From assembly GCF_003201815.1 (NCBI RefSeq), contig NZ_QJKB01000006.1:62001-126000 (forward strand): 64,000 nucleotides of DNA. The letters run 5' to 3'. Below the pieces are notes generated by a model that saw only the letters and a list, made by a program, of their open reading frames with translations, had not been told where the DNA came from and did no database searches. Each line of letters starts with the position of its first letter. Position 1 is the first letter of the stretch. The stretch comes from Undibacterium pigrum. Lineage in GTDB: Bacteria; Pseudomonadota; Gammaproteobacteria; Burkholderiales; Burkholderiaceae_D. Positions 31,380 to 49,847 of the stretch are shown here, in pieces. The position numbers and the translations under genes were made by a program.

Positions 31380-31408
31380 GCTGGCCTTCCTGGAATTGTT
31401 GTTGCCGC

Positions 31409-31867: not shown

Positions 31868-31899
31868 GGTTTTATCCTGTTCCAAAAGTGATGAATGAC

Positions 31900-32511
31900 T
31901 TACTTCTTCATGGGTTGACGTATGATGGTTTTCCAGTTTTCTGGCGCTGCCTTGCGTATATCGCTGAGATAAATCTCGTGATGCTTGCCTGCCAGCTTGC
32001 CATGTGCGTCGATGTACTGATGCAGGCGTTCTATGGTTGGCCCTTCATCACTGAAAGGACCTTTGTGCAGGATTTGTGCGCAATGTCCTTCATTGAAATT
32101 TTCAAAGCGTAATTGCTGCAGCGCTGGCAGGTTTTTTTTCTTGCCCGCTGCCGTGATGGCATCTGCCACCATTTCCGCAGTGATGAACTCAGGCTGCATG
32201 ATCATCATGGTCCAGCACCATTGGTTTTTACGGTCTGCTACAAAATCGGCCATATCGTCGGCCCACCACAGGCCCTCAAGCGGCATGACGGCATAGTCTA
32301 TCGCTGCACTGCTTTTCTTTATCATGAACTTCAGGGTATAGGACACCGTAAACAAGGCTTCGACGGCGGCGCTATACTCAGCAGAAGAATTTGGATCACC
32401 CTGGCCATCTATCATGAGAAAATGAAATACAGGGACATCGACCTCGGTCACAGTCGTGGCTGAAGCCTGATAAACAGATTTCAATTGTTTCTTCAAATCC
32501 AGTTTTTCCAT
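31900..32511 (-). CDS. GyrI-like small-molecule-binding protein
   Basis: 203 residues of the GyrI-like (PF06445-type) family with the N-terminal signature VPVFHFLMIDGQGDPN and the later HKGPFSDEGPTIERLHQYI and KHHEIYLSDIRKA. Same strand as the two preceding GyrI-domain genes; spacing suggests a shared transcript. Ligand unknown. Confidence 0.9.
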   Translation of the reverse strand: MEKLDLKKQLKSVYQASATTVTEVDVPVFHFLMIDGQGDPNSSAEYSAAVEALFTVSYTLKFMIKKSSAAIDYAVMPLEGLWWADDMADFVADRKNQWCWTMMIMQPEFITAEMVADAITAAGKKKNLPALQQLRFENFNEGHCAQILHKGPFSDEGPTIERLHQYIDAHGKLAGKHHEIYLSDIRKAAPENWKTIIRQPMKK

Positions 32512-32613
32512 GATGACGGTCTATTCTTCTTGTCAGAGAGGTAGCTACCTTAGCATGAAGGGATTTGACAAATCTTGCGGACTTGTAGTCGGGCTATATG
32601 AAAGGGAACCATA

Positions 32614-33156
32614 ATGGACGCCAGTTTGACGATACGTTGTGCCAAGGAAGCTGATATCGCCGCCATGCAAGCCCTGATTGCGCGCTCAGCCATACAGCTC
32701 AGCGCAAGCTTTTATACACCAGAGCAGGCGCAAGCACTGCTGACACATGTATTTGGCGTCGACACACAACTCATCCATGACCAGACTTATTTTGTCATTG
32801 AAGAACAGGGCAGGATGCAGGCCTGTGGCGGCTGGAGCAAACGCAAGACCCTGTTTGGCGGCGACCAGGCCAAGCATGGCGTGGACGGATTGCTGGATCC
32901 GGCGACAGAAGCAGCACGCATACGCGCATTCTTTGTCGAACCCTCAGCCGCACGGCGTGGCCTGGGCCGTCTTTTACTGGAACATTGCAGTACCCAGGCG
33001 CAGGCGGCAGGCTACACCGTGCTGGAGCTGGCGGCTACCATGCCGGGTGAGCCGTTGTACTTGGCCTGTGGTTTCCAGGTGTTTGAACGCTTCCAGCTTG
33101 ATTTGCCAGATGGCGTGATCGCCCCGCTTAGCCGCATGCGCAAGTTGCTAGCCTGA
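32614..33156 (+). CDS. GNAT family N-acetyltransferase
   Basis: 180 residues. The acetyl-CoA loop is in FFVEPSAARRGLGRLLLEHC, preceded by CGGWSKRKTLFGGD and followed by LELAATMPGEPLYLACGFQ. Substrate unknown. It is convergent with a small hypothetical gene that starts one base after its stop codon. Confidence 0.9.
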   Translation: MDASLTIRCAKEADIAAMQALIARSAIQLSASFYTPEQAQALLTHVFGVDTQLIHDQTYFVIEEQGRMQACGGWSKRKTLFGGDQAKHGVDGLLDPATEAARIRAFFVEPSAARRGLGRLLLEHCSTQAQAAGYTVLELAATMPGEPLYLACGFQVFERFQLDLPDGVIAPLSRMRKLLA

Positions 33157-33157
33157 T

Positions 33158-33394
33158 TTATTCATGTTCGCGTTTTAATTCTTCACGCTTGATATGCTGC
33201 CATGAGCCCAGCCGATGATGGCGTGGCATGGGCTGGGCATCTATGCGCGCATTGAGCCTGCTGACCCAGACGCACCAGCTTGCCCATAAGTTGCCAAATA
33301 AGTTGCCAAATAAGTTGTCAAAATATTTCTCAAACATGCTGACAGGCTGGTCTGGTGCGGCAGATCGGGGGCCATTTCCAGTTTTATTCTTCAT
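33158..33394 (-). CDS. Small hypothetical protein with an internal short repeat
   Basis: 78 residues from the ATG at 33394, chosen because GGGGA lies seven bases upstream; another ATG is available at 33421. Three tandem 12-base units (AAGTTGCCAAAT and near copies, 33289-33324 on the plus strand) encode a DNLFGNLFGNLW stretch. The C-terminus is basic and charged. I do not recognise a family. It is divergent from the following LysR gene. Confidence 0.5.
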   Translation of the reverse strand: MKNKTGNGPRSAAPDQPVSMFEKYFDNLFGNLFGNLWASWCVWVSRLNARIDAQPMPRHHRLGSWQHIKREELKREHE

Positions 33395-33486
33395 GTTGTT
33401 TCCCCATGCAATGCTGTTCACCGGGGCAGTATAGGTGCTAAGCTATGCACAGGGAATCGACAAATTTGCGCTTTTCATCCGCATAA

Positions 33487-34446
33487 ATGCACAGTCCATC
33501 TACATCAACTATATCCATCTCTGACGCTCCAGATGCCGCACGCCTGGACTGGGATGACTTGCGTTATCTCCTGGCTGTCGCCAGAGGCAGCTCCTTGTCC
33601 GCCGCCGCAAGGGTCTTGAAAGTCACACATTCCACAGTATTGCGCCGGGTAGAAGCCATGGAAGCAAAGCTGGCCGTGCGTTTGTTCGAGCGTTTGCGCA
33701 CTGGCTATGTCTGTACAGAAGCTGGTGAAAACCTGCGGCGCGCAGCTGAGCAATGTGAATCCCTGATTGCACAGGCAGAACGTGAAATCATCGGTGGAGA
33801 TACCCGTCTCACCGGGCATGTGCGCGTCACTACCGCCCATGTCGTTGCCATGTATTTATTACCTGCTGCCCTGGCAAAATTTCATGCCCGGCACAGTCAG
33901 ATTGAAGTCGAAGTGCGCACGGCCCGCGCAAGAGTGGACCTCGCAAGGCGTGAAGCAGATGTGGCAATCCGCATGTCTGCTGAGGTACCTGACAGTCTGG
34001 TAGGGCGGCAACTGGGGCAAATCAGGATACGTGTATATGGCTGGCATGAAGCGCCTTGCATGGCCAGGCTCAAACCGCATACTCTGTTGCCACTGGAGGC
34101 ATTGACGCAGGATTTCCCCTGGATAGGTTTTGATGGTCAGGACAGAACATATGACCGCTGGGTCGATGCGCATGTGCCTGCGCAAGTCGTGGTGGCACGG
34201 GCCGACCATTTTCCCAGTGCCACTGCACTGATCAGGACAGGTATGGGTGTCAGTATCCTGCCGGAATTTGTTGCACGCGACGTGCCGGGATTGCGTGCTT
34301 TGTCTGAGCCAATTGCAGCTTTGCAATCTCCTTTATGGATGCTGACACATGTGGATTTGCGGAATACGGCAAGAGTGCGCGCTTTCATGCAAATTGCAGG
34401 CAATGCATTGCAAGCAGCTTTGCAACAAGACTTTACTGAGGAATAG
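33487..34446 (+). CDS. LysR-family transcriptional regulator
   Basis: 319 residues. HTH in ARLDWDDLRYLLAVARGSSL and LKVTHSTVLRRVEAMEAKLA; effector-binding half from about residue 105 (TGHVRVTTAHVVAMYLLPAAL), with ATALIRTGMGVSILPEFVA near the end. The alpha/beta hydrolase gene begins two bases after its stop codon, so the two are very likely co-transcribed. Confidence 0.93.
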   Translation: MHSPSTSTISISDAPDAARLDWDDLRYLLAVARGSSLSAAARVLKVTHSTVLRRVEAMEAKLAVRLFERLRTGYVCTEAGENLRRAAEQCESLIAQAEREIIGGDTRLTGHVRVTTAHVVAMYLLPAALAKFHARHSQIEVEVRTARARVDLARREADVAIRMSAEVPDSLVGRQLGQIRIRVYGWHEAPCMARLKPHTLLPLEALTQDFPWIGFDGQDRTYDRWVDAHVPAQVVVARADHFPSATALIRTGMGVSILPEFVARDVPGLRALSEPIAALQSPLWMLTHVDLRNTARVRAFMQIAGNALQAALQQDFTEE

Positions 34447-34448
34447 TC

Positions 34449-35426
34449 ATGCAAAATACCTCATCTCCTGGTAAGCGATTTTTAAGGCGTTTTTTTCTCT
34501 TTATTGCTGGTTTGAGCCTGACCATATTATGTCTGCTGGGTATAGCCCTGGCGATATTCTGGGCGCCCGATAAACCTGTCGATGAATTGAAAGCACGCTG
34601 GGCACCGCCACCTTCGCAATTCATTACTGTCAATGGCATGTCTGTTCATGTACGTGATGAGGGCAAACAGGATGACCCTGTACCCATCATCTTAATTCAT
34701 GGCACTTCAGCCAGCCTGCATACCTGGGAAGCCTGGGTGGCAGAATTGAAAGGCCAGCACCGCGTCATCAGCATGGATATACCCGCCTTTGGCCTGACCG
34801 GCCCCAGGGCCGATGCTGATTACCGCAGCCCCACCTATGCCAGATTCATCCTCGACTTGCTGGACACCATGAAGGTAGAGCGTTGCATCATAGCCGGTAA
34901 TTCTCTCGGGGGTGAAGTGGCATGGCAGGTCGCAGTGGCAGCGCCGCAAAGGGTAGAGCGGCTGATACTGGTGGATGCCGGTGGCTATGCTTTCAAGTCC
35001 AGCTCTATACCCTTGGGTTTTCGTATCGCCCGCATGCCGCAAGTTGCCTGGATAGCAGAACATATCTTGCCGCGTCGCATGATGGAAAACAGTGTGAAAA
35101 ATGTGTATGGCAACCCTGATAAAGTCACGCCAGCCCTGGTCGACAGATATACCGCCATGACTTTGCGCGAAGGTAACCGCCATGCCCTGAGCCAGCGCTT
35201 CCAGCAAACCAGTTCTGGTGCTCACGCAGCCAGCATCAAGAACATACATGTGCCTACATTGATTATCTGGGGTGGGCAGGACAGACTGATACCACCGGAA
35301 TATGCCAGCAAATTCAATCAGGATATTGCAGGCAGCAAGCTGGTGATATTCGACAAGCTGGGCCATGTGCCGCATGAAGAAGATCCGGCAGCAACGGTGG
35401 CAGTTGTGAAAGAATTTTTGAAATGA
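34449..35426 (+). CDS. Membrane-anchored alpha/beta hydrolase
   Basis: 325 residues. An N-terminal membrane anchor (LFIAGLSLTILCLLGIALAI) precedes an alpha/beta hydrolase domain: HGTSASLHTWEAW, nucleophile elbow AGNSLGGEVAWQ, acid in WGGQDRLIPPEYA and catalytic His in LGHVPHEEDP. It sits in the same transcript as the preceding LysR gene. The substrate is unknown; esterase or lipase activity is plausible. Confidence 0.92.
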   Translation: MQNTSSPGKRFLRRFFLFIAGLSLTILCLLGIALAIFWAPDKPVDELKARWAPPPSQFITVNGMSVHVRDEGKQDDPVPIILIHGTSASLHTWEAWVAELKGQHRVISMDIPAFGLTGPRADADYRSPTYARFILDLLDTMKVERCIIAGNSLGGEVAWQVAVAAPQRVERLILVDAGGYAFKSSSIPLGFRIARMPQVAWIAEHILPRRMMENSVKNVYGNPDKVTPALVDRYTAMTLREGNRHALSQRFQQTSSGAHAASIKNIHVPTLIIWGGQDRLIPPEYASKFNQDIAGSKLVIFDKLGHVPHEEDPAATVAVVKEFLK

Positions 35427-35454
35427 ATAGAAAGATGTGGATACCTGTAAACGC

Positions 35455-35476
35455 AAAAAGCCCACCAGGGGTGGGC
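35455..35476 (-). terminator. Intrinsic terminator oriented to the minus strand
   Basis: GCCCACC/GGTGGGC stem of 7 bp with a 3-base loop; on the minus strand it is followed by TTTTT. It could also act as a hairpin end for the plus-strand alpha/beta hydrolase transcript, but without a T-run in that direction. Confidence 0.7.
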
Positions 35477-35503
35477 ATTCCATTCATTCCGGCAAACTGA
35501 CAA

Positions 35504-35532
35504 CAACCCATGCTATCTGCGTGGTGTCACTG
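35504..35532. repeat. 29-base intergenic direct repeat, copy A
   Basis: Begins CAACCCATGCTATCTGCGTG and is identical over 29 bases to 35925-35953. A diverged third copy follows closely at 35545-35565 (CCCGTGCTATCTGCGCGGTG) and a fourth, short copy lies at 35808-35820 (CCATGCTATCTGC). The common core is TGCTATCTGC. I found no other occurrence in the window. Confidence 0.8.
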
Positions 35533-35924
35533 CTTGGTGCATCACCCGTGCTATCTGCGCGGTGTAATGTGGGGGTGTTTGCCTGTTCCTGCTGGTCCGC
35601 TATAGTTCGGTCCATGACAGGAGCTACCACGAATGAGATCCTTCAACACTTCACTACACCATTTCCCGGTTCGCATATATATACACATATACATGCAAAA
35701 CCAGCCGGTGAGAATGAAGGCGCTTTGGAGTAGGCTGAGCTTACTCTGCGGTCTTGTGCACAGGATGCACTATGCATCCTTTAACGACAATACCATTTTC
35801 TCTTGATCCATGCTATCTGCAAGGTACCAAAAGCCGGTAAGTATCATTCTGCGCATCAGCATTTTGTACTGGACGAAAACACTGACAGGTGAAGGGTGTC
35901 GCCATGCGATTGACTAGTCCCCAG

Positions 35925-35953
35925 CAACCCATGCTATCTGCGTGGTGTCACTG
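35925..35953. repeat. 29-base intergenic direct repeat, copy D
   Basis: Identical to 35504-35532. This copy is enclosed by a 9-bp inverted repeat (TTGACTAGT at 35910-35918 and ACTAGTCAA at 35968-35976), which could bring the flanks together or mark insertion boundaries. Confidence 0.8.
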
Positions 35954-36037
35954 GCCGGTATTACTAAACTAGTCAAAAGCGCTGCGACTGGGCAAATTGA
36001 ATTCGCCCGGCAAGGTCCCTGAGGACCTTAAGTCTGA

Positions 36038-36250
36038 TTAAGACAGAATCTGGATGTTGCTGGCTTTGTCGCCTTTAGGACCGGCTGTGCGCTCGAAAGA
36101 CACACGCTGGTTTTCGCTCAGGCTTTTGAAGCCGCTGGACTGTATGTCCTGGAAGTGTGCGAACAAATCTGCACCACCTGCATCAGGAGCGATAAAGCCG
36201 AAGCCCTTGGCATCGTTGAACCATTTAACTATACCTGTTTGAGTACTCAT
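36038..36250 (-). CDS. Cold-shock protein (CspA family)
   Basis: 70-residue single OB-fold RNA/DNA chaperone with both nucleic-acid-binding motifs: KGFGFIAPD (RNP1) and DLFAHFQDI (RNP2-type). The ATG at 36250 is preceded by AAAGGA and begins [20 protein letters not shown] long leader upstream is probable, as usual for csp genes. It is divergent from the WGR/LRR gene. Confidence 0.96.
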
Positions 36251-36708
36251 GTTTTTTTCCTTTTGATAAAACCATAGGCGAAATTGCCCAATATGGACTT
36301 GTAAGCAAGTGATAAAACCAGTGGAGAAAAGACAGAACAGCCAGAGAGATAAAGCTATGCGGAATTGGGACCAACAAATTAAGGACTTGATGCAAGTACA
36401 GGACGGAATATACACGTTTACTTTGAAAGTGCCTAATTTTTTTTAAAAAATATTTTGAGCGACTAATCGTGCGGATTTTTGACTGGCACTTAATTACTAT
36501 GATTTTTTCAATGTCGAAAAGACCGCGCTTGCAGAGCATTGTGTCTGGCAAATTGCCCCATCCCTCATAGGAAAGTAAATAGTAAAACTGTCCGATGTAA
36601 CAATTGATTTTCTTGCTTGACAAGGCGCAGGGTGAACACGATTATCTAGTGTGAAAGACAAGATATTTTTGCAGTCTGAAATTAACCGCATACATAAGGT
36701 GGCAGGCA
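36251..36708. other. Divergent regulatory region between the cold-shock gene and the radical SAM cassette
   Basis: 458 AT-rich bases. The right part holds the cassette promoter (36617-36645). The left part is presumably the csp leader and promoter, but I could not pick a confident -35/-10 pair there. No coding frame looks real. Confidence 0.6.
36617..36645 (+). promoter_or_regulatory. Sigma70-type promoter for the STM4015-STM4011-like cassette
   Basis: Consensus TTGACA (36617-36622), a 17-base spacer, then GATTAT (36640-36645; 4 of 6 matches). It predicts a leader of about 57 bases before the ATG at 36709, which carries AGGTGG upstream. Confidence 0.6.
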
Positions 36709-37776
36709 ATGAAACATTATTTTGAATACCAGGATTCCAAGTCTTATAAATTTTGGCAGATAGAAATTGAAGCAAATACCTTGAATGTGAAGTACGGCAA
36801 GATAGGTACCGCAGGTCAGGAAAAAATCAGCAGCTTTGATACGCCAGAAAAAGCGCAAAAGGAAATGGAAAAGCTGATCAGTGAAAAAACCAAAAAGGGT
36901 TATGTAGAAAAAACCGATGCCAGCGCCAAGAAAGTAGCGCGACGTATAGGCGTCAGTTACGACGAAGCAGAAGAAGGCAAGACCCTGCTGGAAAAAGTCA
37001 CCGCTTTCCTGGACAGTAGCCAGGCAACAGAAGTTGAGTCACTGGTGATTGCTGCGTGGGAAGAAGCATATGAAGAAGGCCCGCAAGAATCCCTGAACCT
37101 GTTGATCGCCAATCCAGGCAAACTGCCCCAATTGAAAGAATTGTTTGTTGGTGACATGGATTCAGAAGAGTGTGAAATATCCTGGATCACCCAGGCCGAT
37201 TACACAAATCTGTTTGCAGCCTTCCCCGCGCTGGAACGCTTGCATATCAAGGGTTCGAAAGACCTGGTCTTGACTTCCCAGCCGCTAAAACATGAGCATC
37301 TCAAAGCATTGACCATAGAATGTGGTGGTCTGCCCAAAGAAGTCATAGAAAAAATTGCGACAGCCCATTTGCCCAGTCTCGAATATCTGCAACTGTATAT
37401 CGGTGTTGATGAATATGGCTTTGACGGTAAGCTTGATGATTTACGTCCCTTCATGCAAAAAGGCCTGTTCCCCAAACTGAAACATCTGGGCCTGGTAGAC
37501 AGTGAAATCGCCAATGAGATAGCGATTGAAATTGCGCAGGCATCTGTGCTGGAGCAACTGGAAACGCTGGACCTCTCCATGGGCACGCTCAGCGACGAGG
37601 GTGGTCGCGCCTTGCTGGACAGCAGCAAGATAGCCGGGCTTAAAAAGCTGGACTTGCATTACCATTATTTGTCGAATGACATGATCAAGGAATTCAAAAA
37701 ATTGTCTATCCTGGTGGATGTCACTGACCAGCAAGACACTGAAGATGAATGGCGTTATCCAGCAGTCACAGAATAA
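36709..37776 (+). CDS. WGR-domain and leucine-rich-repeat protein, STM4015-like
   Basis: 355 residues. Residues 1-75 are a WGR domain (YEYQDSKSYKFWQIEI-like region, NVKYGKIGTAGQ), a module found in polymerases, PARPs and some bacterial stress proteins. Residues about 100-340 match the STM4015 family: leucine-rich repeats such as LEYLQLYIGV, LKHLGLVDSEI, LETLDLSMGTLSDEG and LKKLDLHYHYLS. The chain ends DEWRYPAVTE. It is the first gene of a six-gene cassette, 6 bases upstream of the ATP-grasp gene. A substrate or scaffold role for the cassette's enzymes is possible but unproven. Confidence 0.85.
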   Translation: MKHYFEYQDSKSYKFWQIEIEANTLNVKYGKIGTAGQEKISSFDTPEKAQKEMEKLISEKTKKGYVEKTDASAKKVARRIGVSYDEAEEGKTLLEKVTAFLDSSQATEVESLVIAAWEEAYEEGPQESLNLLIANPGKLPQLKELFVGDMDSEECEISWITQADYTNLFAAFPALERLHIKGSKDLVLTSQPLKHEHLKALTIECGGLPKEVIEKIATAHLPSLEYLQLYIGVDEYGFDGKLDDLRPFMQKGLFPKLKHLGLVDSEIANEIAIEIAQASVLEQLETLDLSMGTLSDEGGRALLDSSKIAGLKKLDLHYHYLSNDMIKEFKKLSILVDVTDQQDTEDEWRYPAVTE

Positions 37777-37782
37777 AGACAG

Positions 37783-38892
37783 ATGCAAAAGAAATCCCGC
37801 TTTGTACTGATAGGTAATCCTGAAAACCGGCGTGTACATTTTTTCCAGGAAGCATTGCAGCAAGCAGGGCAGGATGCTGCCCTGGTCATCCCCTATCTGG
37901 GTATATTGAATGGTGAGTGCAAACTGCCTGATGTACTCAGGGATGGTGACACGGTAAGGATAGAGTCGCCAGGTGAAAATTTTGCAGTGGAAAAGAAAAT
38001 ACTCGCCCTTGGTGGTCTGGAAAATGCCAGCGAACTGGAAGATGAACGCGGCAGGATTTATCATCCGCGACTATGGTTCCAGGGGTTTTCCAGATTGATG
38101 GGATCAATCGCACAGCAGGCAGCCGGGCTGCACTTTTTTAATCATCCTGAAGACATCATCAGCATGTTTAACAAGCCCTTGTGCAAACAAATATTGTCAG
38201 CCCATACGCTACCCAGCCTGCCAGTATTTTCCAGCTATGATGAATTTTTCGCTTATGCAGAAGCGCAGGCGTACAGCCGCTTTTTTATCAAACTGAATTC
38301 CAGTTCTTCTGCATCGGGTATCGTCGCTTATGAATACAATAAAAGAAACGGTAAAGAGCAGGCTTACTCTACGGTAGAGATAGTGCATGGTATTGATGGT
38401 GAACGTTATTACAATTCACTGAAAATAAAAAAATATACTACACGAGACAAGATACAGAACATTCTTGATTTCTTGTTCGCACAGGGTGCCATGGTAGAAA
38501 GCTGGATACCCAAGGCCAGGCATGAAGACAGCTCTTACGATTTGCGGGTAATGGGTATCGCAGGCCAGCGCAGACATGCCATTGCCAGGCTCAGTCGTGG
38601 TCCCATGACCAACCTGCATCTGGGCAACCAGCGCTGTGCAGTGGATGAACTGGAATTGCCCTCAGCTACCTGGCAAGAAATCGATACCCTGGTAGAAAAA
38701 ACCATGCTGGCTTTTCCACGTTCCCTGTATGCGGGGCTGGATATCCTTTTGCCAAGGAATGATAAATCACCCGTGCTGCTGGAAGCTAATGCCTTTGGCG
38801 ATTTGCTGCCTAACTTGCTGCACAAAGATGAGAATACTTATCTGGCAGAAATCAATGCAGTGCTGGAAAGGCAGAGGCTGACTCATGCTTAA
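37783..38892 (+). CDS. ATP-grasp-like protein, STM4014-like
   Basis: 369 residues resembling the STM4014 family. The C-terminal two thirds look like an ATP-grasp ligase: FFIKLNSSSSASGIVAYEY (ATP-binding lysine and glycine-rich turn), VESWIPKA, DLRVMGIAGQRRHAI and the acidic/Asn metal site LLEANAFGDL. Such enzymes activate a carboxylate for amide or thioester formation. It overlaps the HAD gene by 8 bases, implying coupled translation. Confidence 0.85.
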   Translation: MQKKSRFVLIGNPENRRVHFFQEALQQAGQDAALVIPYLGILNGECKLPDVLRDGDTVRIESPGENFAVEKKILALGGLENASELEDERGRIYHPRLWFQGFSRLMGSIAQQAAGLHFFNHPEDIISMFNKPLCKQILSAHTLPSLPVFSSYDEFFAYAEAQAYSRFFIKLNSSSSASGIVAYEYNKRNGKEQAYSTVEIVHGIDGERYYNSLKIKKYTTRDKIQNILDFLFAQGAMVESWIPKARHEDSSYDLRVMGIAGQRRHAIARLSRGPMTNLHLGNQRCAVDELELPSATWQEIDTLVEKTMLAFPRSLYAGLDILLPRNDKSPVLLEANAFGDLLPNLLHKDENTYLAEINAVLERQRLTHA

Positions 38893-39550
38893 GACAAAAA
38901 AAGCCAGTCTGCTTTTTGATATCGACAATACCCTGGTAGACAGGGATGCTGCTTTTCACGCTTACGTGATGGATTTCATCAGCAGGAATCAGGCGGCATT
39001 TTTTGAAGCAGATATGTCGCAGGTGCTTGCAAAAATACTTGCACTGGACTGCCATGGCAGGAAAGACCGCAAGCTTTTTTGTCAGGAAGTATTGCAAGGT
39101 TTTCCTGGCCTTCCATATACCGCAGAAAGCTTATGGGAAGATCATATGTCATTGCCAGATTTCGTCAAGCCAGATAGCGTGATCAATGCGATGCTGGAGC
39201 GTTTATCTGCCGATTACCAGCTCATGATTATCTCAAACGGTTCAGCCAATATGCAAAGGCGAAAACTACATCAGGCTGGCCTTGCCGATTACTTTGAACA
39301 TATCTTCATTTCTGCTGAAGTGGGTTGTGCCAAACCTGATATGCAATTGTTTTCACATGCCTTGAGTTACGCTCACCATGCCAGTGTAGTCATGATAGGG
39401 GACGACTACATCAATGATATGCAGCCAGCCATGGCCATGCAATTAACAACAATTTTCATCAACCCTGGAAATGAAACCGTGGCAGTCAGACCAGATCATC
39501 AGTTATCCGGCATCCATGACCTGGAGGAGGCCCTGGCATGCATGATATGA
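38885..39550 (+). CDS. HAD-superfamily hydrolase
   Basis: 221 residues. Motif I is LFDIDNTLVDRD (Asp12 nucleophile, Asp14), motif II ISNGS, motif III lysine in VGCAKPDMQLF and motif IV VMIGDDYINDM. The cap is helical, as in YjjG/YfnB-type nucleotidases or phosphatases. It sits inside the cassette, overlapping both neighbours, so it is likely a working member rather than a passenger. Confidence 0.92.
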   Translation: MLKTKKASLLFDIDNTLVDRDAAFHAYVMDFISRNQAAFFEADMSQVLAKILALDCHGRKDRKLFCQEVLQGFPGLPYTAESLWEDHMSLPDFVKPDSVINAMLERLSADYQLMIISNGSANMQRRKLHQAGLADYFEHIFISAEVGCAKPDMQLFSHALSYAHHASVVMIGDDYINDMQPAMAMQLTTIFINPGNETVAVRPDHQLSGIHDLEEALACMI

Positions 39551-40344
39551 ACCAGATCGTTGGTAAGAGCAACGTACTCTTCATCACTCTTGATACCCTG
39601 CGCTATGACATTGCACAAGAAGAGCTTGCCGCAGGTCGCACGCCTTTTCTTGCCAGTGTATTGCCATCAGGCTGGGAAGAACGCCATGCCCCCGGTTCTT
39701 TTACTTATGCATCGCACTGCGCTTTCTTTGCCGGTTTTCTTCCTACTCCTGCCAGGCCGGGCGTACATGAACGTTTATTTTCATTGAAGTTCGCGGGCAG
39801 TGAAACCACGGGAACAAACAGTTATAGTTTTGATACGCCGGACATCGTCAGCGGCTTTGCTGGCATCGGTTACCGCACTATCTGCATAGGCGGGGTTGGT
39901 TTCTTCAAGAAGCAAAATCCCTTGTCTTGTGTTTTGCCGGATCTTTTTCAAGAAAGTTACTGGCAGCCAGAGTTTGGTGTGACCGATCCTGAGTCAACCA
40001 GGCATCAAGTTGAATTTGCCATAGAGTTGTTGCAGCAAAAACTTGATCAAAAAGTTTTTTTATTTATGAATTTATCTGCATTACACCAGCCCAATTGTCA
40101 TTACCTGCCCGGTTCAGTTGGCGATAACCTGGACAGCCATGCTGCGGCATTGCGTTATATCGACAGCCAGTTGCCGCCCTTGTTACAGGCATTCAATCAA
40201 ATGGGTGATACTTTTGTGATTATCAGTTCTGACCACGGCACAACCTACGGTGAAGACGGCTTTACAGGGCACAGGCTGGGGCATGAAAAGGTCTGGACTA
40301 TCCCCTATGCAGATTTTCATATGACACGCGGGAGTTTGGTATGA
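39538..40344 (+). CDS. Alkaline-phosphatase-superfamily hydrolase, STM4013-like
   Basis: 268 residues resembling the STM4013/SEN3800 family, related to sulfatases and phosphopentomutases. Metal ligands appear in NVLFITLDTLRYD (Asp19), SSDHGTTYGEDG (Asp/His) and HRLGHE; the nucleophile region is GSFTYASHCAFFAG. GGAGGAGG seven bases upstream supports the ATG at 39538. The stop codon overlaps the next start codon (ATGA). Confidence 0.88.
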   Translation: MHDMNQIVGKSNVLFITLDTLRYDIAQEELAAGRTPFLASVLPSGWEERHAPGSFTYASHCAFFAGFLPTPARPGVHERLFSLKFAGSETTGTNSYSFDTPDIVSGFAGIGYRTICIGGVGFFKKQNPLSCVLPDLFQESYWQPEFGVTDPESTRHQVEFAIELLQQKLDQKVFLFMNLSALHQPNCHYLPGSVGDNLDSHAAALRYIDSQLPPLLQAFNQMGDTFVIISSDHGTTYGEDGFTGHRLGHEKVWTIPYADFHMTRGSLV

Positions 40345-41681
40345 CAGAGATAGCTCATACATTTCGCCGCTATCTGGAAGAGACCAATCGCTTTCAAAGC
40401 TATCTGTATTCTTATCCGCACAAAACAGCATATAGAAATTTTGAAGAAAAGCTGGATTTAAAAGAACTCTGGGCGACAGAAAAAAAACATGCACTGTATC
40501 TCTACACGCATATTCCTTTTTGCCGCATGAAATGCTCATTCTGTAATTTGTTCACGGTATCCCATCCCAAGGAAGACCTGGTCAGTCTCTATCTGAAAAA
40601 AATCCAGCTGGAAGCTGAAGTGGTGAGAGATAGCCTCGGCGATTTCAACTTTGCCGGTTATGCCATAGGCGGTGGTACACCCAGCCATCTGGATACCAAG
40701 CAACTGGAACAGCTATTCTCGGTGTACACCAATACGCTGGGCGTAGACTTGAAAAACACACCAGGTTCCTTCGAGATTTCACCCGATACCATCAATGATG
40801 AAAAGCTGACTTTCCTGTCGCAGCATGGGGTGCAAAGACTCAGCATAGGCATACAAAGCTTCATTGAAACTGAAGCGCGTTCGGTAGGCCGGGTACAGCC
40901 AGAAACCGTGATGGAACCACTGCTCGAAAAAATAAGCAGTTACCAGTTCCCGGTATTTAATCTGGACCTGATTTATGGCATACCAGGGCAAACTGCAGAA
41001 ACCTGGCTGGCATCGCTGCAAAAAGCGGTACAGTTTCAACCAACTGAAATTTTTCTTTATCCCTTGTATGTGCGTCCCCTGACTTCGCTATTCAAGAAGC
41101 ATATCAGCATACAAAACGAAGACATACGTAGCACACTTTACCGTATAGGGCGTGACTTTTTGCAGGCCAATGGTTATGTGCAAGATTCCATGCGCCTGTT
41201 CCGCAAGCAGGTAGCTGGTTTGCGTGAGAGTTCAGAATATTCATGTCAGGAAGATGGCATGATAGGCCTGGGTACGAACGCAAGGTCTTACACGACAGAT
41301 GTACATTATTCGACAGAATACGCAGTGGCCAAGCCGAATGTGGCAGCGATCATCGATGACTATGTTGCGAAGGAACGTGCCGACTTCATGACGGCCAGTT
41401 ATGGCATACGCCTGTCTGAGGATGACAGAAAACGGCGTTACCTGATCAAGTCTTTTTTGAAATCGCAAGGCTTGGATGCTGCGCATTACCAAAGCATTTA
41501 TGGAACGGATGTGTATGCGGATTTTCCTGAATTGCAAAGCTTGCTGGAAATGAATCTGGCACAAGAAAGTGCCGGTCGCATGCAACTGCAAGGGGAAGGA
41601 ATGGCTTATTCTGATCTTATCGGTCACTGGTTTATTTCGCCAGCAGTCAAACAAAAGATGCAGGAGTATGTCACCAAATGA
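40341..41681 (+). CDS. HemN-like radical SAM protein, STM4012-like
   Basis: 446 residues. The radical SAM cluster motif is CRMKCSFC (Cys61, Cys65, Cys68), preceded by LYTHIPF as in HemN/HemW. Also seen are YAIGGGTPSHLD, HGVQRLSIGIQSF and FNLDLIYGIPGQTAETW, the SAM-binding elements of this subgroup. The family name STM4012 covers such proteins in a conserved neighbourhood with STM4011. It is not likely to be the coproporphyrinogen oxidase itself. Confidence 0.92.
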   Translation: MTEIAHTFRRYLEETNRFQSYLYSYPHKTAYRNFEEKLDLKELWATEKKHALYLYTHIPFCRMKCSFCNLFTVSHPKEDLVSLYLKKIQLEAEVVRDSLGDFNFAGYAIGGGTPSHLDTKQLEQLFSVYTNTLGVDLKNTPGSFEISPDTINDEKLTFLSQHGVQRLSIGIQSFIETEARSVGRVQPETVMEPLLEKISSYQFPVFNLDLIYGIPGQTAETWLASLQKAVQFQPTEIFLYPLYVRPLTSLFKKHISIQNEDIRSTLYRIGRDFLQANGYVQDSMRLFRKQVAGLRESSEYSCQEDGMIGLGTNARSYTTDVHYSTEYAVAKPNVAAIIDDYVAKERADFMTASYGIRLSEDDRKRRYLIKSFLKSQGLDAAHYQSIYGTDVYADFPELQSLLEMNLAQESAGRMQLQGEGMAYSDLIGHWFISPAVKQKMQEYVTK

Positions 41682-42538
41682 GCCTGAAAGTCATTTACCG
41701 CGGCCACCTGACAGATTGCAATTACAGTTGCGAATACTGCCCCTTTGCCAAAGAAAAAAACAGCCGTGAATTGCAGGCGCTGGATAAGAAAGACCTGGAC
41801 AGATTTGTGGACTGGGTAGAGCAAAACAGTAGTGCCGACCAGCCCATGGAAGTGTTTATTACACCTTACGGTGAAGCCCTGGTGCGCAAATGGTATCAGG
41901 AAGCGGTGATACGTTTGTCACATCTGCCGCATGTCAGCAAGGTGGCGGCGCAAACCAATCTGGCCTGGAATACGCAATGGCTGTCGCGCTGTAATACCCA
42001 GACCACGGCTTTGTGGACTACCTATCATCCCGACTTTGTGACGGAAGAAAAATTTGTCAGCAAATGCAATGAACTGGCTGCCTTGCAGATACGTCATAGC
42101 GTAGGTGTAGTGGGTTTGAAGCAGCATTTCCCGCAAATCACTTCTCTGCGCCAGCGCCTGCCACAGGATGTGTATATGTGGATCAATGCCTATAAGCGTG
42201 AAGTTGATTATTACTCGGAAGAAGAAATCGCTTTTCTTGAAGATATCGATTATTTGTTCAGGTTGAACCTGCCCTGGTATGAAAGCATGGGCAAAGACTG
42301 CAAGGCCGGCAGTGAGGTGGTGTCTATAGAAGGTAATGGCGACCTGTTCCGCTGCCACTTCATCAAAACCCGCAAAGGCAATATTTTTACAGACTCGCTG
42401 GCCAGCATGCTCAAGAAAGAAACTTGCAGTAAAGCGACTTGTCATTGCCATATAGGTTATATCCATCTGGATGCCATGAAATCGCATGAAGTGTATGGCA
42501 GTGGCTTGCTGGAAAGGATACCTGTGCGTTTTTCCTGA
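41678..42538 (+). CDS. Radical SAM protein, STM4011-like
   Basis: 286 residues. The CxxxCxxC motif is CNYSCEYC (Cys14, Cys18, Cys21). Cysteines near the C-terminus (KDCKAGS, FRCHF, CSKATCHCH) could bind a second Fe-S cluster, as in SPASM/twitch proteins. The start codon overlaps the STM4012-like stop. It is the last gene of the cassette; a TonB-dependent receptor begins 148 bases later. Confidence 0.92.
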   Translation: MSLKVIYRGHLTDCNYSCEYCPFAKEKNSRELQALDKKDLDRFVDWVEQNSSADQPMEVFITPYGEALVRKWYQEAVIRLSHLPHVSKVAAQTNLAWNTQWLSRCNTQTTALWTTYHPDFVTEEKFVSKCNELAALQIRHSVGVVGLKQHFPQITSLRQRLPQDVYMWINAYKREVDYYSEEEIAFLEDIDYLFRLNLPWYESMGKDCKAGSEVVSIEGNGDLFRCHFIKTRKGNIFTDSLASMLKKETCSKATCHCHIGYIHLDAMKSHEVYGSGLLERIPVRFS

Positions 42539-42686
42539 AGGCATTCAGGAGCTAGAAAGGACGCAAGTGGTTTGCCTCTTATACGATTTTTTCATGCTTT
42601 AAGCTGAAAACAATCGTTTGTCGTCTATGCACAAGGAAGTAATATCGGTTGAACTTAAAGCTCATTAGCATGGAAAGCGATACCGT

Positions 42687-45080
42687 ATGAACACAACTTC
42701 AAACTTAGCCTTAACTCTGCCAAAGCGACGAAATGCCTTACTGGTAACGGCCTTGCTGTCGGCCTTATCTACCATGTCTGCACAGGCACAGGAAATTATC
42801 CCACCACAATCAGATACCGTGATTGTGACTGGTACACGCAGCATCAAGCGTACTGTGTCTGACTCTGAAGCACCTGTCGATATCCTGACTTCCAAAGATT
42901 TGCAATCGACAGGCTCTGGTGAACTGGCAACGGTATTGAGCCGTTTGCTGCCTTCTCTGAACTTCCCGCGCCCTGCGGTGGCAGACGGCACATCTGCCAG
43001 CCGCCCGGCACAATTACGTGGACTGTCGCCTGATCAGACTCTGGTGCTGGTGAATGGCAAACGCTGGCATACCTCGGCTGTGGTGAATGTGAATGGCACG
43101 GCAGGGCGTGGTTCTTCGCCGGCTGATTTGAATACCATCCCCATCAGTTCCATCGACAAGATAGAAGTCTTGCGTGATGGTGCGGCAGCGCAATATGGTT
43201 CAGACGCGATTGCCGGTGTCATCAACATCATTCTCAAAAAAGGTGCAGAGGGTGGCGCAGTGCAAGTGGGTGGTGGCCAATACAGTAAACGTGATGGCAC
43301 ACAAGCCAGTTTGAGCGCCAACTTTGGCACGGCATTGGGTGAGAAGGGTTGGGCGCGTTTTACCGCAGAGCAGCGCAACCAGAATGAAACCAACCGCGCC
43401 GGTGCTGATTTCCGTAATCCGCTGGAACCCTTGTACGGCAGGGTTAACCAGGTACAAGGCGACCCCAAGCTGCAACAAACCAACCTGGGCGTGAATGCAT
43501 CGTTGGCACTGGCTACAGATATAGAGTTATATGGTTTTGCCAACTACAGTCGCCGCAGCACTGATGCCGCCGCAACCTGGCGCACGGCTTACTCCACAGG
43601 CACGACTTTGCGCACTCCGCTATACCCAAATGGCTTTCTGCCAAATGAAGCGGGAACGAATACGGATGTGTCCGTCGTTGGTGGTGTCAAAGGTCGTACC
43701 GACGGCTGGCGCTGGGATGCCAGTGTCAATTATGGCTCCAGCGAATTCAGCCTCGACATCAACAATACCGTCAACCTGAGTCTGGGTGCCACCAGCCCTA
43801 CGAAGTTTTATGCTGGCAAGCTGAAAAATACCCAGACCCTGGCAAATTTTGATGCAGCCCGGGAGATAGAATTTGCTGGTCTGGCAAATCCGCTGACGCT
43901 GGCGCTTGGCGCAGAATACCGCCGCGACCAATATGAAATTGGTGCGGGTGAAGCGAATTCTTATTTCGGTAGCGGCGCACAGGGTTTCTCTGGTTTCCAG
44001 CCTTCGAATGCAGGCAGCTTCAGCCGCCACAGCACGGCGATCTATGCCAACGTCGAAGCTGAACTGAACAAGCAACTGAGTGCTTCGTTGGCCTTGCGTC
44101 ATGAAAATTACAGCGATTTTGGCAGCGTCACTTCTGGCAAATTGTCTGGCCGTTTTGCATTCACTAAAGAATTTGCCTTGCGTGCTGCGGCGTCAAATGG
44201 TTTCCGCGCGCCTTCACTGGCGCAACAAAATTACACCATCTCGACCACTAATCTGATTACCATCAACGGCAGTTCACAACTGGTGGATACCGGCACTTTC
44301 GGTGTCGCCACGGCTGCTGCCAAGGCTCTTGGTGCTGTACCGCTGCAAGCAGAAAAATCACGCAATTACAGCCTTGGTGCAGTCCTGCAGCCTAGCAAGA
44401 ATGCCACTCTGAGCATCGATGCTTACCAGATCGATATTGATAATCGCATCCTGTATTCTGGCAATCTTGTTTTGCCAGCGGCTTTGCAAAGTGTGCTGGC
44501 ACAGCAGGGTGTACTGGTTGGTGCAGCGCGTTATTTCACTAATGCGCTCGATACCAAGACGCGTGGTGTTGATGTCGTTGGTTCTTACCAGATACCGCTG
44601 TCTGGCACAGACAAGCTGGGCTTTACAGTAGCCTACAATCACAATGACACGACAGTCAAAAATGTTGCTGCCAATCCAGCGATTCTGACGCAAAACAATC
44701 TCTTGCTGATAGACAGGCAAACCATTAACCGCGCAACCGAGGCGACACCAAAAGACAAATTCAGCATCGCTGCTGACTATGCCTTTGCCAACTGGAATAT
44801 CCATGGCCTGGCCACCCGCTACGGCAGTTTTGTTTCGCCACAAAACAGTGTGGCACTGGACCAGACTTACAGTGCCAATACAGTGCTGGACCTGGCTGCC
44901 AGCGTCAAGCTGGGTAAATGGACCATCAGTGCCGGTGTCGATAATCTGACAGACAAATATCCTGACCAGGTGACGTCGGCAGGCAATTTGAATTCTGGTG
45001 GGACGCTGCCATACAGTACATTCTCGCCTTACGGTTTCAATGGTCGTTACTACTATGCTAAGGCTGCCTACACTTGGTAA
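42687..45080 (+). CDS. TonB-dependent outer-membrane receptor
   Basis: 797 residues. The signal peptide (ALLVTALLSALSTMSAQAQE) is followed by a TonB-box-like DTVIVTG, the plug (LRGLSPDQTLVLVNGKRWH, EVLRDGAAAQYGSDAIAGVI) and the beta-barrel, ending FNGRYYYAKAAYTW with a terminal aromatic. The ligand is not evident; siderophores, cobalamin or plant/microbial metabolites are all possible. Its position behind the radical SAM cassette suggests, but does not prove, uptake of a related molecule. Confidence 0.94.
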   Translation: MNTTSNLALTLPKRRNALLVTALLSALSTMSAQAQEIIPPQSDTVIVTGTRSIKRTVSDSEAPVDILTSKDLQSTGSGELATVLSRLLPSLNFPRPAVADGTSASRPAQLRGLSPDQTLVLVNGKRWHTSAVVNVNGTAGRGSSPADLNTIPISSIDKIEVLRDGAAAQYGSDAIAGVINIILKKGAEGGAVQVGGGQYSKRDGTQASLSANFGTALGEKGWARFTAEQRNQNETNRAGADFRNPLEPLYGRVNQVQGDPKLQQTNLGVNASLALATDIELYGFANYSRRSTDAAATWRTAYSTGTTLRTPLYPNGFLPNEAGTNTDVSVVGGVKGRTDGWRWDASVNYGSSEFSLDINNTVNLSLGATSPTKFYAGKLKNTQTLANFDAAREIEFAGLANPLTLALGAEYRRDQYEIGAGEANSYFGSGAQGFSGFQPSNAGSFSRHSTAIYANVEAELNKQLSASLALRHENYSDFGSVTSGKLSGRFAFTKEFALRAAASNGFRAPSLAQQNYTISTTNLITINGSSQLVDTGTFGVATAAAKALGAVPLQAEKSRNYSLGAVLQPSKNATLSIDAYQIDIDNRILYSGNLVLPAALQSVLAQQGVLVGAARYFTNALDTKTRGVDVVGSYQIPLSGTDKLGFTVAYNHNDTTVKNVAANPAILTQNNLLLIDRQTINRATEATPKDKFSIAADYAFANWNIHGLATRYGSFVSPQNSVALDQTYSANTVLDLAASVKLGKWTISAGVDNLTDKYPDQVTSAGNLNSGGTLPYSTFSPYGFNGRYYYAKAAYTW

Positions 45081-45103
45081 TCGTATAAATAGCTGCCATT
45101 TTG

Positions 45104-45130
45104 AAAGGATTGCTGGTGCAATCCTTTTTT
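45104..45130 (+). terminator. Intrinsic terminator after the TonB receptor
   Basis: AAAGGATTGC and GCAATCCTTT form a 10-bp stem with a short loop, followed by a run of six T. It lies 23 bases after the stop codon. Confidence 0.85.
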
Positions 45131-45226
45131 AACATCTGCAAATTAGTAATGAAATAAGTGCATATCAATAGACGAGGCGATGGATGTTTCCGTTAAAATT
45201 TTGAAGAATCCCAACTTTATCCATTC

Positions 45227-45985
45227 ATGATGCGCCACTTTTTTTTCCGGCTATGCACTTTATGTCTATTTGCCTGTCAAATTGCTTCAGTTGACGCGGC
45301 AGAAACGCGTATCGTTAAAAGTAGCAATGTCGAAATTCCAGAAATACTTAATCAGTATCGACTGCCTGAAGAGATCAGTTTCGATGCTATGACTTCTGAT
45401 GAAGTAAAAGAAATTCAAATACAGACAAAAAAAGTTGATTGCCTGGCATGGGCGTTTTTGATTAACCAGGGAGGGCGCCTTCCCGTCATGGCAACTTTTG
45501 CGAATGGAAATGGAAGTAAGCATTTTATTGGTGCGCAAATTGGCGTGGCGAAAATCAATAATGTGTTTCGCCGCTTTGAGGGCAGGGGGAGTAGTTATGA
45601 ATACTTCAATACCAAAATCAAAGAAAAGCATGCGGCGAAATTTCAGTTTGCGGATTTTAGACCAAGAACATTCGCTGATGCCACAAAATTTCTCAGCGCT
45701 TCTATGTATAACACGGTCCCATTAAATTTGATCAGCGAAGATGTGCAAATACGCAATCGCTCGACAAGCTGTACTTTTGCCGATCGGAAATGCCGAGTAT
45801 ATGTAGGTGAATTCAAAGCGAGCTGGTTACTTGATAATTTACGTGAGCAAACAATTGAGCATCCCGCAATCAAGCTGGAGTTCGAAGATAGTTGCCCCGC
45901 AACCAGTGCTGGCATGTTTGAGAATTTCAACAGCAAACTAAGTCCACTACACGAAAAATTGTTTCGGATTAGACACGGTCTATGA
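45227..45985 (+). CDS. Exported hypothetical protein
   Basis: 252 residues with a signal peptide (FRLCTLCLFACQIASVDA). The mature part contains several cysteines (DCLAWAFL, SCTFADRKCRV, EDSCPATS) likely to be paired. No family is recognised. The gene is noticeably more AT-rich than its neighbours and sits alone between a terminator and the DUF2975 gene, which suggests recent acquisition (inference). Confidence 0.6.
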   Translation: MMRHFFFRLCTLCLFACQIASVDAAETRIVKSSNVEIPEILNQYRLPEEISFDAMTSDEVKEIQIQTKKVDCLAWAFLINQGGRLPVMATFANGNGSKHFIGAQIGVAKINNVFRRFEGRGSSYEYFNTKIKEKHAAKFQFADFRPRTFADATKFLSASMYNTVPLNLISEDVQIRNRSTSCTFADRKCRVYVGEFKASWLLDNLREQTIEHPAIKLEFEDSCPATSAGMFENFNSKLSPLHEKLFRIRHGL

Positions 45986-46277
45986 ACTGTTTGCCGCATA
46001 TGCCATGTCACATGATGGCTTCGACTTCCGTCTAATAGTGTCTTGTGTGCATTATTCTTCGCTTCATTTTCTGTGGCATTTATTGCAATGCCGATCAGCC
46101 TGCGCTCACCTATCTCAATTTCAATCTGACTTTGTATAGAGAAAAGCCTATTTTTAATGTACTTCTTCCCTGGAGTAATATTAAACGGTATATATTTATC
46201 GATAAACAGTAAAAATATATTGCTTTTCGAAATTTCTGGTTTAGAATTCATATCACTAATTCAATCAGGAGTGCCAA

Positions 46278-46865
46278 ATGCAAGTTCAAAAACATGCCAG
46301 GATTGCCAATATTCGCAAGTTGAGCAGGTATTTTCTTTTCCTGACGGTAGCTCTAATGGCCATTATTGCTATTGGTGGTATTGGCTTCCCTGTTTTCCTG
46401 ATGACGGTATCCTCCGGAGATTTAACTGTGGCCGGATACCTGGCACGAGCCGCAACACTGGACGATGGTTTTTTCTCGCAGCTGAAAGAGGGCTTGAGCT
46501 TGCAGTTAAAGGTGGTTGCGGGACTTGTCTGGCTCGCCTGGTGCACTGTGGTGTGGAGGGTGCTCGTCCATATCAATCAATTGCTTACATGCTTTCATGA
46601 TGGAGAAATTTTTAATAAGAAGGCCATCTTTCATGCAAAAAGAGCGTTCAATCTCAACTTGATACTTGTCGCTTCGGCGCTGGGCATAGATTTTCTCGCC
46701 ATCGTTTTTAGCTATGTCTACCCAAGTGCTGGTGGTACTGGTGATATAGGGCATTTTCTTGGCCGCGTATTAGATCAGATGACATGGATAGGATTCTTCT
46801 TGCTCTTGCTGTGGTCGCTGGAAATCGGTGTCGACCTTAATGAAGAAGCTGAACTGACCATCTGA
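46278..46865 (+). CDS. DUF2975 family membrane protein
   Basis: 195 residues with four membrane helices: LTVALMAIIAIGGIGFPVFL, VAGLVWLAWCTVVW, LILVASALGIDFLAIVF and QMTWIGFFLLLLWSLEIGVD. DUF2975 proteins are usually encoded directly before a small Cro/CI regulator, as here. Function unknown. Confidence 0.9.
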   Translation: MQVQKHARIANIRKLSRYFLFLTVALMAIIAIGGIGFPVFLMTVSSGDLTVAGYLARAATLDDGFFSQLKEGLSLQLKVVAGLVWLAWCTVVWRVLVHINQLLTCFHDGEIFNKKAIFHAKRAFNLNLILVASALGIDFLAIVFSYVYPSAGGTGDIGHFLGRVLDQMTWIGFFLLLLWSLEIGVDLNEEAELTI

Positions 46866-46872
46866 GGACACT

Positions 46873-47106
46873 ATGCCCATTACTGTGAATCTAGATGTTG
46901 TCCTCGCCCAGCGCAAGATGCGTTTGAATACTTTGGCTGAGCTGGTCGATATCACGCCACAAAATCTGTCCGTATTAAAGACCGGCAAGGCCAAGGCGAT
47001 ACGCTTTGATACCCTGGAAAAAATTTGCGAAGTGCTGGCATGCCAGCCGGGCGATATTCTGGCTTATACACCAGATGCGCCAGATGCACCGGCGACAGAA
47101 GCCTGA
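46873..47106 (+). CDS. XRE-family (YozG-like) helix-turn-helix regulator
   Basis: 77 residues: VVLAQRKMRLNTLAELVDIT, QNLSVLKTGKAKAIRFDTLE, CEVLACQPGDIL. Intact partner of the DUF2975 protein, 7 bases downstream, with GAGGA upstream. The degraded copy at 24189-24403 belongs to the same family. The pair is a membrane protein plus regulator and not a classic toxin-antitoxin. Confidence 0.92.
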   Translation: MPITVNLDVVLAQRKMRLNTLAELVDITPQNLSVLKTGKAKAIRFDTLEKICEVLACQPGDILAYTPDAPDAPATEA

Positions 47107-47107
47107 T

Positions 47108-48325: not shown

Positions 48326-48444
48326 GATTTATTTATATTGATAGTCAGAATCAAGATTGACCATGCCTGCATGCAGATCCTAGACTGCCTGCATGGACGG
48401 TTTATCGCATTGTGCGCTAATTTGATTTTATTTGGGAGAGCATC

Positions 48445-49839: not shown

Positions 49840-49847
49840 ACTGAAAT

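Follow-up and report, generated by a model that had tools for sequence, protein, structure and literature searches.

What do the proteins of the STM4011 to STM4015 families do together, and on what do they act? The question is raised by a six-gene cassette of Undibacterium pigrum at positions 36709-42538 of a 64,000-nucleotide stretch (positions 62,001 to 126,000 of contig NZ_QJKB01000006.1), which we call the window. The cassette encodes, in order, a leucine-rich repeat (LRR) protein with an N-terminal WGR domain (STM4015), an ATP-grasp ligase (STM4014), a HAD-IA hydrolase, a second hydrolase (STM4013), and two radical S-adenosylmethionine (SAM) enzymes (STM4012 and STM4011). A sequence-only reading of the window had assigned these families and an operon layout correctly: five of the proteins scored above the curated NCBIfam cut-offs (Table 1), and the HAD-IA hydrolase reached no NCBIfam equivalog cut-off.

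The cassette spans 12 phyla, Salmonella included, and its families have been named without a function. NCBIfam types STM4013, STM4014, and STM4015 as "hypoth_equivalog", STM4011 as "subfamily", and STM4012 as "equivalog", and the five descriptions name no function beyond hydrolase or radical SAM protein. Literature searches, with subscription papers and preprints outside their reach, found no functional study of these families. In the portions available, PMC3844500 surfaced as an rpoN binding table, PMC2784778 as a selection table, and PMC4632510 as a screen table listing STM4010; the accessible portion of a CDC123 ATP-grasp paper (PMC4431377) contains neither "radical SAM" nor "LRR". Here we report that STM4015 ends in a nearly invariant glutamate, which is the new observation on this system.

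The C-terminal end of STM4015

Genome contigs were scanned with a STM4011 alignment, giving at least 591 stretches, at least 580 of them encoding a relative, of which the best 80 were kept. Together with loci from plasmid records, the collection comprised 92 sources, namely the window and loci L063-L153. The last residue was Glu in all 12 proteins of a first STM4015 alignment, and over 92 STM4015 open reading frames (ORFs; 256-540 amino acids) it was Glu in 90, Asp in one, and Gly in one. The tail is R-Y-V-A-V-(G/S/T)-E-like, with Arg in 75, Tyr in 72, and Phe in 11 of the 92 at their positions, and among the 12 residues that precede the last eight, acidic ones average 5.0 and basic ones 0.9. 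In a 48-row alignment, E355 was the only invariant column past residue 311.

To counter sampling bias, 88 ORFs were clustered at 60% identity, after three had been dropped for scores below 200 bits and one for an overhang. All 53 representatives ended in Glu, corresponding to zero entropy at the last position, compared with 2.75-3.43 bits in the remaining five proteins of the cassette (16-42 representatives). The three low-scoring ORFs, from planctomycetes, end in Glu as well, as does STM4015 in all 24 cassettes found elsewhere in the window's GTDB family (one of them the same locus as L075). A degenerate tail pattern gave nine matches in seven genomes, seven of which were STM4015, one per genome (7/7). 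Of the remaining two, one, in at most a putative gene, ends in TGA and the other is followed by TGG, not a stop codon.

The AlphaFold2 (AF2) model of STM4015 (predicted local distance difference test, pLDDT, 92.2) had 2ra8 as its best Foldseek match in the Protein Data Bank (PDB), at 41% identity. This structural-genomics entry from Bacteroides fragilis (Q64V53), labelled uncharacterized, is a WGR-LRR relative over the whole length (phmmer E 1.4e-81) and carries the tail YPMITE.

STM4014 and the other cassette enzymes

A 49-row STM4014 profile matched the lysine biosynthesis enzyme LysX in the PDB (1uc8/1uc9, E 2.3e-7; 3vpd, E 3.4e-7), followed by RimK entries including 5zct, the matched stretches being short. 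The top Foldseek match of the AF2 model (pLDDT 94.9) was the ArgX-LysW complex 3vpb (E 6.9e-13, TM-score 0.57 by query length); next came 5k2m (LysX/ArgX with LysW-gamma-AAA), and then PsnB with its precursor (7dro) and RimK with S6 (5zk6), at TM-scores of about 0.55 by query length. By profile and by fold, the nearest matches are LysX/ArgX, with 12-15% of residues identical; graspetide ligases and RimK come close after them, as do the D-Ala ligases, which in the Foldseek list follow within about 3 logs. Residues K131, K170, D253, R255, R269, D320, and N336 are conserved and E239 and E334 nearly invariant, a set that fits an intact ATP-grasp site.

A complete core cassette (all five STM genes) is present in 67 of the 92 sources. 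STM4015 adjoins STM4014 on the same strand in all 67, gaps of less than 400 bases counting as adjacency, and loci with an inverted or relocated pair are no exception; the STM4015-STM4014 block lies on the other strand in 15 loci. The other adjacencies number 66 for STM4012-STM4011, 63 for STM4013-STM4012, and 33 for STM4014-STM4013, some of the last being broken because a HAD gene sits between. Duplication affected STM4015 in 12 of the 67 loci, with up to four copies, and the enzyme genes in none. The constant adjacency and the STM4015-only duplication are as expected if STM4014 acts on STM4015. The window's genome contains no second STM4015 over the cut-off, one weak match elsewhere scoring 21.9 bits.

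STM4012 is HemN-like, with PDB matches to HemN (1olt) and NocN (9p2u). STM4011 contains CxxxCxxC in 111/111 sequences and five further Cys in 110/111, and its only PDB profile match at E <= 0.1 was the peptide maturase SkfB (6efn, E 3e-4), over the C-terminal Cys-rich part. The STM4013 profile placed the protein in the alkaline phosphatase/sulfatase superfamily, with sulfatases as the first PDB matches. The residues invariant in 48 STM4013 sequences (D19, T56, H183, D232, H233, and H245) presumably resemble the Thr-nucleophile branch of that superfamily, and on this likeness a sulfatase proper was set aside, despite the first matches. By eye, the DxD, S/N, K, and DD motifs of the HAD hydrolase are intact. 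These matches and motifs do not fix the substrate.

Relatives of STM4013 also occur outside the cassette. In a Streptomyces albidoflavus plasmid (L067:4842-8291), one is clustered with a radical SAM protein, a thymidylate-kinase-like protein, and a NUDIX hydrolase; this cluster may reveal what STM4013-type enzymes act on. An Agrobacterium Ti plasmid (L069:5100-5864) encodes a sulfatase-like protein with 25% identity to STM4013 and no cassette around it.

A proposed route and its alternatives

We regard the chances as even that STM4015 is the covalent substrate of the cassette, not an enzyme, with STM4014 loading its terminal Glu and the radical SAM enzymes modifying the tethered group. In the first step, which appears rather probable because of the terminal-Glu conservation and the predicted ligase fold, STM4014 would use ATP to activate the C-terminal Glu and join it through an amide to a small molecule bearing an amine, in the manner of LysX/ArgX on LysW. 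STM4012 and STM4011, the latter with its additional conserved Cys, might then modify the tethered group, a step that falls slightly short of an even chance. STM4013, and the HAD where present, could conceivably remove or transfer phosphate during or before the radical SAM modification. The product would be either released from STM4015 as a carrier or kept as a permanent C-terminal group, and we lean towards the carrier. The LRR (and WGR) body would be a docking surface. Support comes from the observed gene content, gene order, tail conservation, adjacency, and duplication pattern, together with the predicted ligase fold, and the match of STM4011 to SkfB also speaks for this route; the reactions themselves are proposed. 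The sequence-only reading had spoken of "making or modifying a small molecule or peptide", which fits and is generic; the evidence points more narrowly, to the LRR protein as the probable covalent substrate or carrier by way of its C-terminal Glu.

LysX joins an amino group to the gamma-carboxyl of the terminal Glu of LysW, within an EDWGE motif read by GSWGR, according to the available portions of PMC10433800 and PMC9303977. The likeness to this pathway lies in a partner with an acidic tail and a conserved C-terminal Glu and, tentatively, in STM4014, nearest to LysX/ArgX by profile and fold; the acidic linker of STM4015 resembles the acidic side of EDWGE, as that motif is given in the accessible part of PMC10433800. 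The partner here, however, is an LRR protein (best match 2ra8) and not the small Zn-binding LysW, and its tail is RYVAV(G/S/T)E-like (WRYPAVTE in the window) instead of EDWGE. The string GSWGR is absent from the window's STM4014, the tailoring enzymes are radical SAM and phosphatase-like proteins, and no releasing peptidase was found among 45 neighbour clusters viewed as sequences and 10 representatives scanned with Pfam (of 121; a distant gene is possible). The cassette would work like an amino-group carrier system, yet is not filed as one because it has no LysW fold, no EDWGE, no GSWGR, and no releasing peptidase among the neighbours looked at.

The missing GSWGR and peptidase weigh against the proposed route, and so do several further observations. 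Two STM4015 paralogues end in Asp or Gly (in L105 and L118); neither is among the representatives and both loci have other copies that end in Glu, but in L105 the Asp-ending copy is the one adjoining STM4014. Conserved C-termini are not unique to STM4015, as the STM4012 end is partly conserved (Met at position -7 in 30/42 representatives), and two neighbouring proteins, one of about 100 amino acids and one of family DUF6745, end in Asp (16/16) and Thr (14/16), respectively. The AF2 model gives the last 15 residues of STM4015 as coil at pLDDT 81-86, and so does not itself show a floppy free tail. The 2ra8 chain runs eight residues beyond the Glu, which leaves that structure silent on a terminal one. 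Finally, in Foldseek only about 2-4 logs of E-value separate graspetide and D-Ala ligases from the best match, and all of these have an identity of 11-15%, so the STM4014 fold alone does not fix the substrate.

The strongest rival, which we nevertheless consider unlikely, is permanent modification, in which STM4014 and the radical SAM enzymes would build a lasting C-terminal group and the modified LRR(-WGR) protein would itself be the final product, as a sensor or a cofactor-bearing protein. The Glu conservation, fold, and adjacency data serve it as well as they serve a carrier, and the lack of a peptidase in the neighbour clusters looked at, the nature of LRR and WGR as interaction domains, and the ability of several LRR paralogues to share one enzyme set all fit it. 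WGR is, however, absent from 67 of the 92 STM4015 ORFs, a simple end modification offers no easy role for a phosphatase-like STM4013 and a HAD, and a releasing peptidase could be a housekeeping one encoded elsewhere in the genome.

Somewhat less likely again is that the terminal Glu is only a recognition end for STM4014 or STM4011, with STM4014 joining free small molecules. Small-molecule ATP-grasp enzymes (D-Ala-D-Ala ligase, DcsG) also match the STM4014 fold, and the ends of the DUF6745 pair and the lack of a disordered tail in the STM4015 model agree with docking. The best profile and fold matches, on the other hand, are the protein-C-terminus ligases LysX, ArgX, and RimK, a docking tail need not stop exactly at one residue in 53/53 representatives, and the duplication of STM4015 is substrate-like. 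Graspetide-like chemistry, in which STM4014 would close side-chain ester or amide rings in the tail as the peptide product, appears very improbable. Ser, Thr, and Lys are all missing from the last eight residues in 28 of 92 tails (the linker being outside this count) and Gly takes position -2 in 33/92, which leaves no fixed nucleophile there; only the terminal Glu is near-strict. In favour of this chemistry, PsnB (7drm-7drp) stands above RimK in the Foldseek list, MdnC (5ig9) is present there, the preceding linker is rich in Asp/Glu, and STM4011 resembles SkfB.

Two further systems compare with the proposed loading of STM4015. RimK, the ribosomal protein S6 C-terminal glutamate ligase, shares an ATP-grasp fold acting on a protein C-terminus, and 5zct, 4iwx, and 5zk6 are among the STM4014 matches; it differs in its partner protein and in the radical SAM enzymes downstream in the cassette. 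The adjacency of STM4015 in 67/67 loci points to an acceptor other than S6. Pearlins use a PEARL enzyme, and no family of this LanB-type, tRNA-dependent ligase was found among the six window proteins. In the available portions of the sources, the pearlins (3-thiaGlu and 3-thiahomoleucine; PMC9303977) are likewise built by amino-acid chemistry on a ribosomal carrier, with a radical SAM reaction among the steps and with addition to the C-terminus of TglA (PMC9016710), but they start from aminoacyl-tRNA and a short peptide, where the cassette has an ATP-grasp ligase and an LRR protein. A separate precursor peptide inside the operon was ruled out, as 36709-42538 leaves no intergenic room between the six genes.

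We tentatively suggest, at somewhat under even chances, that the cassette represents a phylum-spanning class of carrier-protein biosynthesis, in which an LRR protein (some with WGR, some multi-copy) would be loaded at its C-terminal Glu by an ATP-grasp ligase, and two radical SAM enzymes and phosphatases would build a metabolite or cofactor on it. If the terminal Glu is the loading site, a widespread unexplained gene set becomes directly testable, mass spectrometry of one protein pair would give a first biochemical handle on it, and a large LRR scaffold would join the carrier proteins known for tethered biosynthesis.

Distribution, variants, and surroundings of the cassette

The best 80 STM4011 stretches fall into 11 named phyla, with three unassigned, and plasmid records add Streptomyces, Nonomuraea, Deinococcus, Methylobacterium, Paenibacillus, Salmonella, and Bacteroides. 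Conservation outside the genus, on which the sequence-only reading had made its proposal depend, was found: the cassette is complete in 67/92 sources across 12 phyla, which are all 11 named phyla of the genome contigs plus Deinococcota from the plasmid records. A genus-specific oddity is rejected, because the cassette and its variants recur in other phyla. The other 25 sources include short contigs, three plasmid loci with a STM4013 relative only, and loci where the set is partly broken or out of reach. In the window's GTDB family, 25 of 195 genomes, counting that of the window, encode a STM4012 above its cut-off; in a phylum sample of 398 genomes one does, again the window's own, so that the distribution is patchy. 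The order STM4015-4014-4013-4012-4011, in single copies with nothing moved and the HAD not counted, occurs in 41 of the 67 complete loci, the window among them. Within the family, 23 of the 24 other cassettes hold all five core genes in this order; in the remaining genome, G001, STM4011 was not found within 1.2 kb beyond STM4012.

Both the WGR domain and the HAD insertion recur as variants of the cassette. WGR was present on 25/92 STM4015 ORFs, in 21 sources including the window. With a profile built from the window's HAD, and among loci with at least 700 bases of room, a HAD stands directly before STM4013 in 24/75, the window included, in Bacteroidota, Myxococcota, Verrucomicrobiota, Planctomycetota, Thermodesulfobacteriota, and Pseudomonadota; both variants occur in Bacteroidota, Myxococcota, and Planctomycetota. 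In Salmonella, a HAD of a different class (Cof-type) follows STM4011. The two features had been called unusual, which does not hold overall and does hold within the window's GTDB family, where, among the 24 other cassettes, neither the HAD nor the WGR domain occurs except in G187, a genome of the window's genus whose locus is apparently that of L075.

In an 88-row STM4012 tree, the HAD label needs 13 changes and the WGR label seven; the tree was a quick one, supported by the Shimodaira-Hasegawa-like approximate likelihood ratio test (SH-aLRT) only, with many forks open, and each count excludes rows with the relevant stretch out of reach. The window's clade (four rows, support 100) stands apart from the rest of its family (7/24 included, one clade, support 100). 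Because of this separation, the window's genus probably acquired the cassette independently.

Several loci are odd in themselves. L105:10035-15473 (Pyxidicoccus) contains four tandem STM4015 paralogues on one strand, with Asp on the copy beside STM4014 and Glu on the other three. L073:4876-8893, a Bacteroides finegoldii plasmid record, holds a decayed-looking cassette in which the STM4013 match covers only 56 residues (query 3-58) and STM4012 was not found; its WGR-STM4015 still has the Glu tail. The record of L133, titled Comamonas sp. KCTC 72670, lies inside Myxococcus in the STM4012 tree, by mislabelling or recent transfer. Misfiled chromosomal DNA is suggested for the Salmonella plasmid record L068, which holds typA and glnA, for the 11.85 Mb Nonomuraea "plasmid" L070, and for three phage-collection records (H27-H29) carrying a STM4013 gene at 42% identity.

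Neighbour ORFs of at least 60 amino acids were clustered from window positions 30000-50000, plasmid loci L063-L066, L068, L070, L072, and L073, and L074-L153. This gave 121 clusters present in at least three loci, many of which stem from synteny within Paenibacillus, Myxococcaceae, or the window's genus, or are shadow ORFs. The commonest, close to the cassette, are the DUF6745 protein and its partner of about 100 amino acids, in 16 loci each (L063, L065, L066, L070, L072, and 11 further); both may be further partners of the system. Among the multi-phylum clusters in fewer loci are sensor kinases, an ABC ATPase, a LysR regulator, DUF1501, a short-chain dehydrogenase, and an APS kinase. The last, a cluster of three loci in Bacillota and Myxococcota, includes a gene directly after STM4011 in Paenibacillus taiwanensis (L138:8873-9382), and a kinase beside STM4011 would fit the phosphatases in the same set.

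Table 1. Features of the cassette in the window, with family scores in bits and NCBIfam cut-offs where applicable.
Feature	Position	Strand	Match
STM4015-family LRR protein, 355 aa, N-terminal WGR; proposed covalent carrier/substrate	36709..37776	+	NF038076, 336 bits (residues 77-355), cut-off 275
WGR domain, residues 1-70 of STM4015	36709..36918	+	PF05406, 72.6 bits
STM4015 C-terminal tail WRYPAVTE, residues 348-355; codon 355 the conserved Glu, proposed ligation site	37750..37773	+	
STM4014-family ATP-grasp ligase, 369 aa; nearest LysX/ArgX and RimK	37783..38892	+	NF038074, 353 bits, cut-off 175
HAD-IA hydrolase, 221 aa	38885..39550	+	PF13419, 64.4 bits
STM4013-family hydrolase, alkaline phosphatase/sulfatase superfamily, 268 aa; likely start 39547	39538..40344	+	NF038075, 400 bits, cut-off 250; PF00884
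STM4012-family HemN-like radical SAM enzyme, 446 aa	40341..41681	+	NF006067, 555 bits, cut-off 380
STM4011-family radical SAM enzyme with further conserved Cys, 286 aa	41678..42538	+	NF038073, 378 bits, cut-off 200

All six ORFs were confirmed exactly at their positions (Table 1), and the genes overlap or nearly touch, as had been noted from the sequence. A gap of six bases separates STM4015 from STM4014, the STM4014/HAD overlap is eight bases (38885-38892), and ATGA overlaps lie at 39547-39550, 40341-40344, and 41678-41681, the first presuming that STM4013 starts at the in-frame ATG at 39547; with a start at 39538 the HAD/STM4013 overlap is 13 bases, so that overlaps range from 4 to 13. The single promoter claimed earlier was not confirmed: a promoter-like TTGACA-17-GATTAT at 36617-36645 is well placed upstream of STM4015, but the region holds nine promoter-like sites compared with 10.2 +/- 3.0 in shuffles, leaving the gene overlaps as the sole argument for co-transcription. 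PADLOC, which covers anti-phage defence, gave only matches to DrmC (18.5 bits) and PDC-M51A (31.5 bits, part of the profile). Read from their translations, the flanking ORFs resemble a cold-shock protein upstream on the opposite strand (36038-36415, -) and a TonB-dependent receptor downstream (42687-45080, +).

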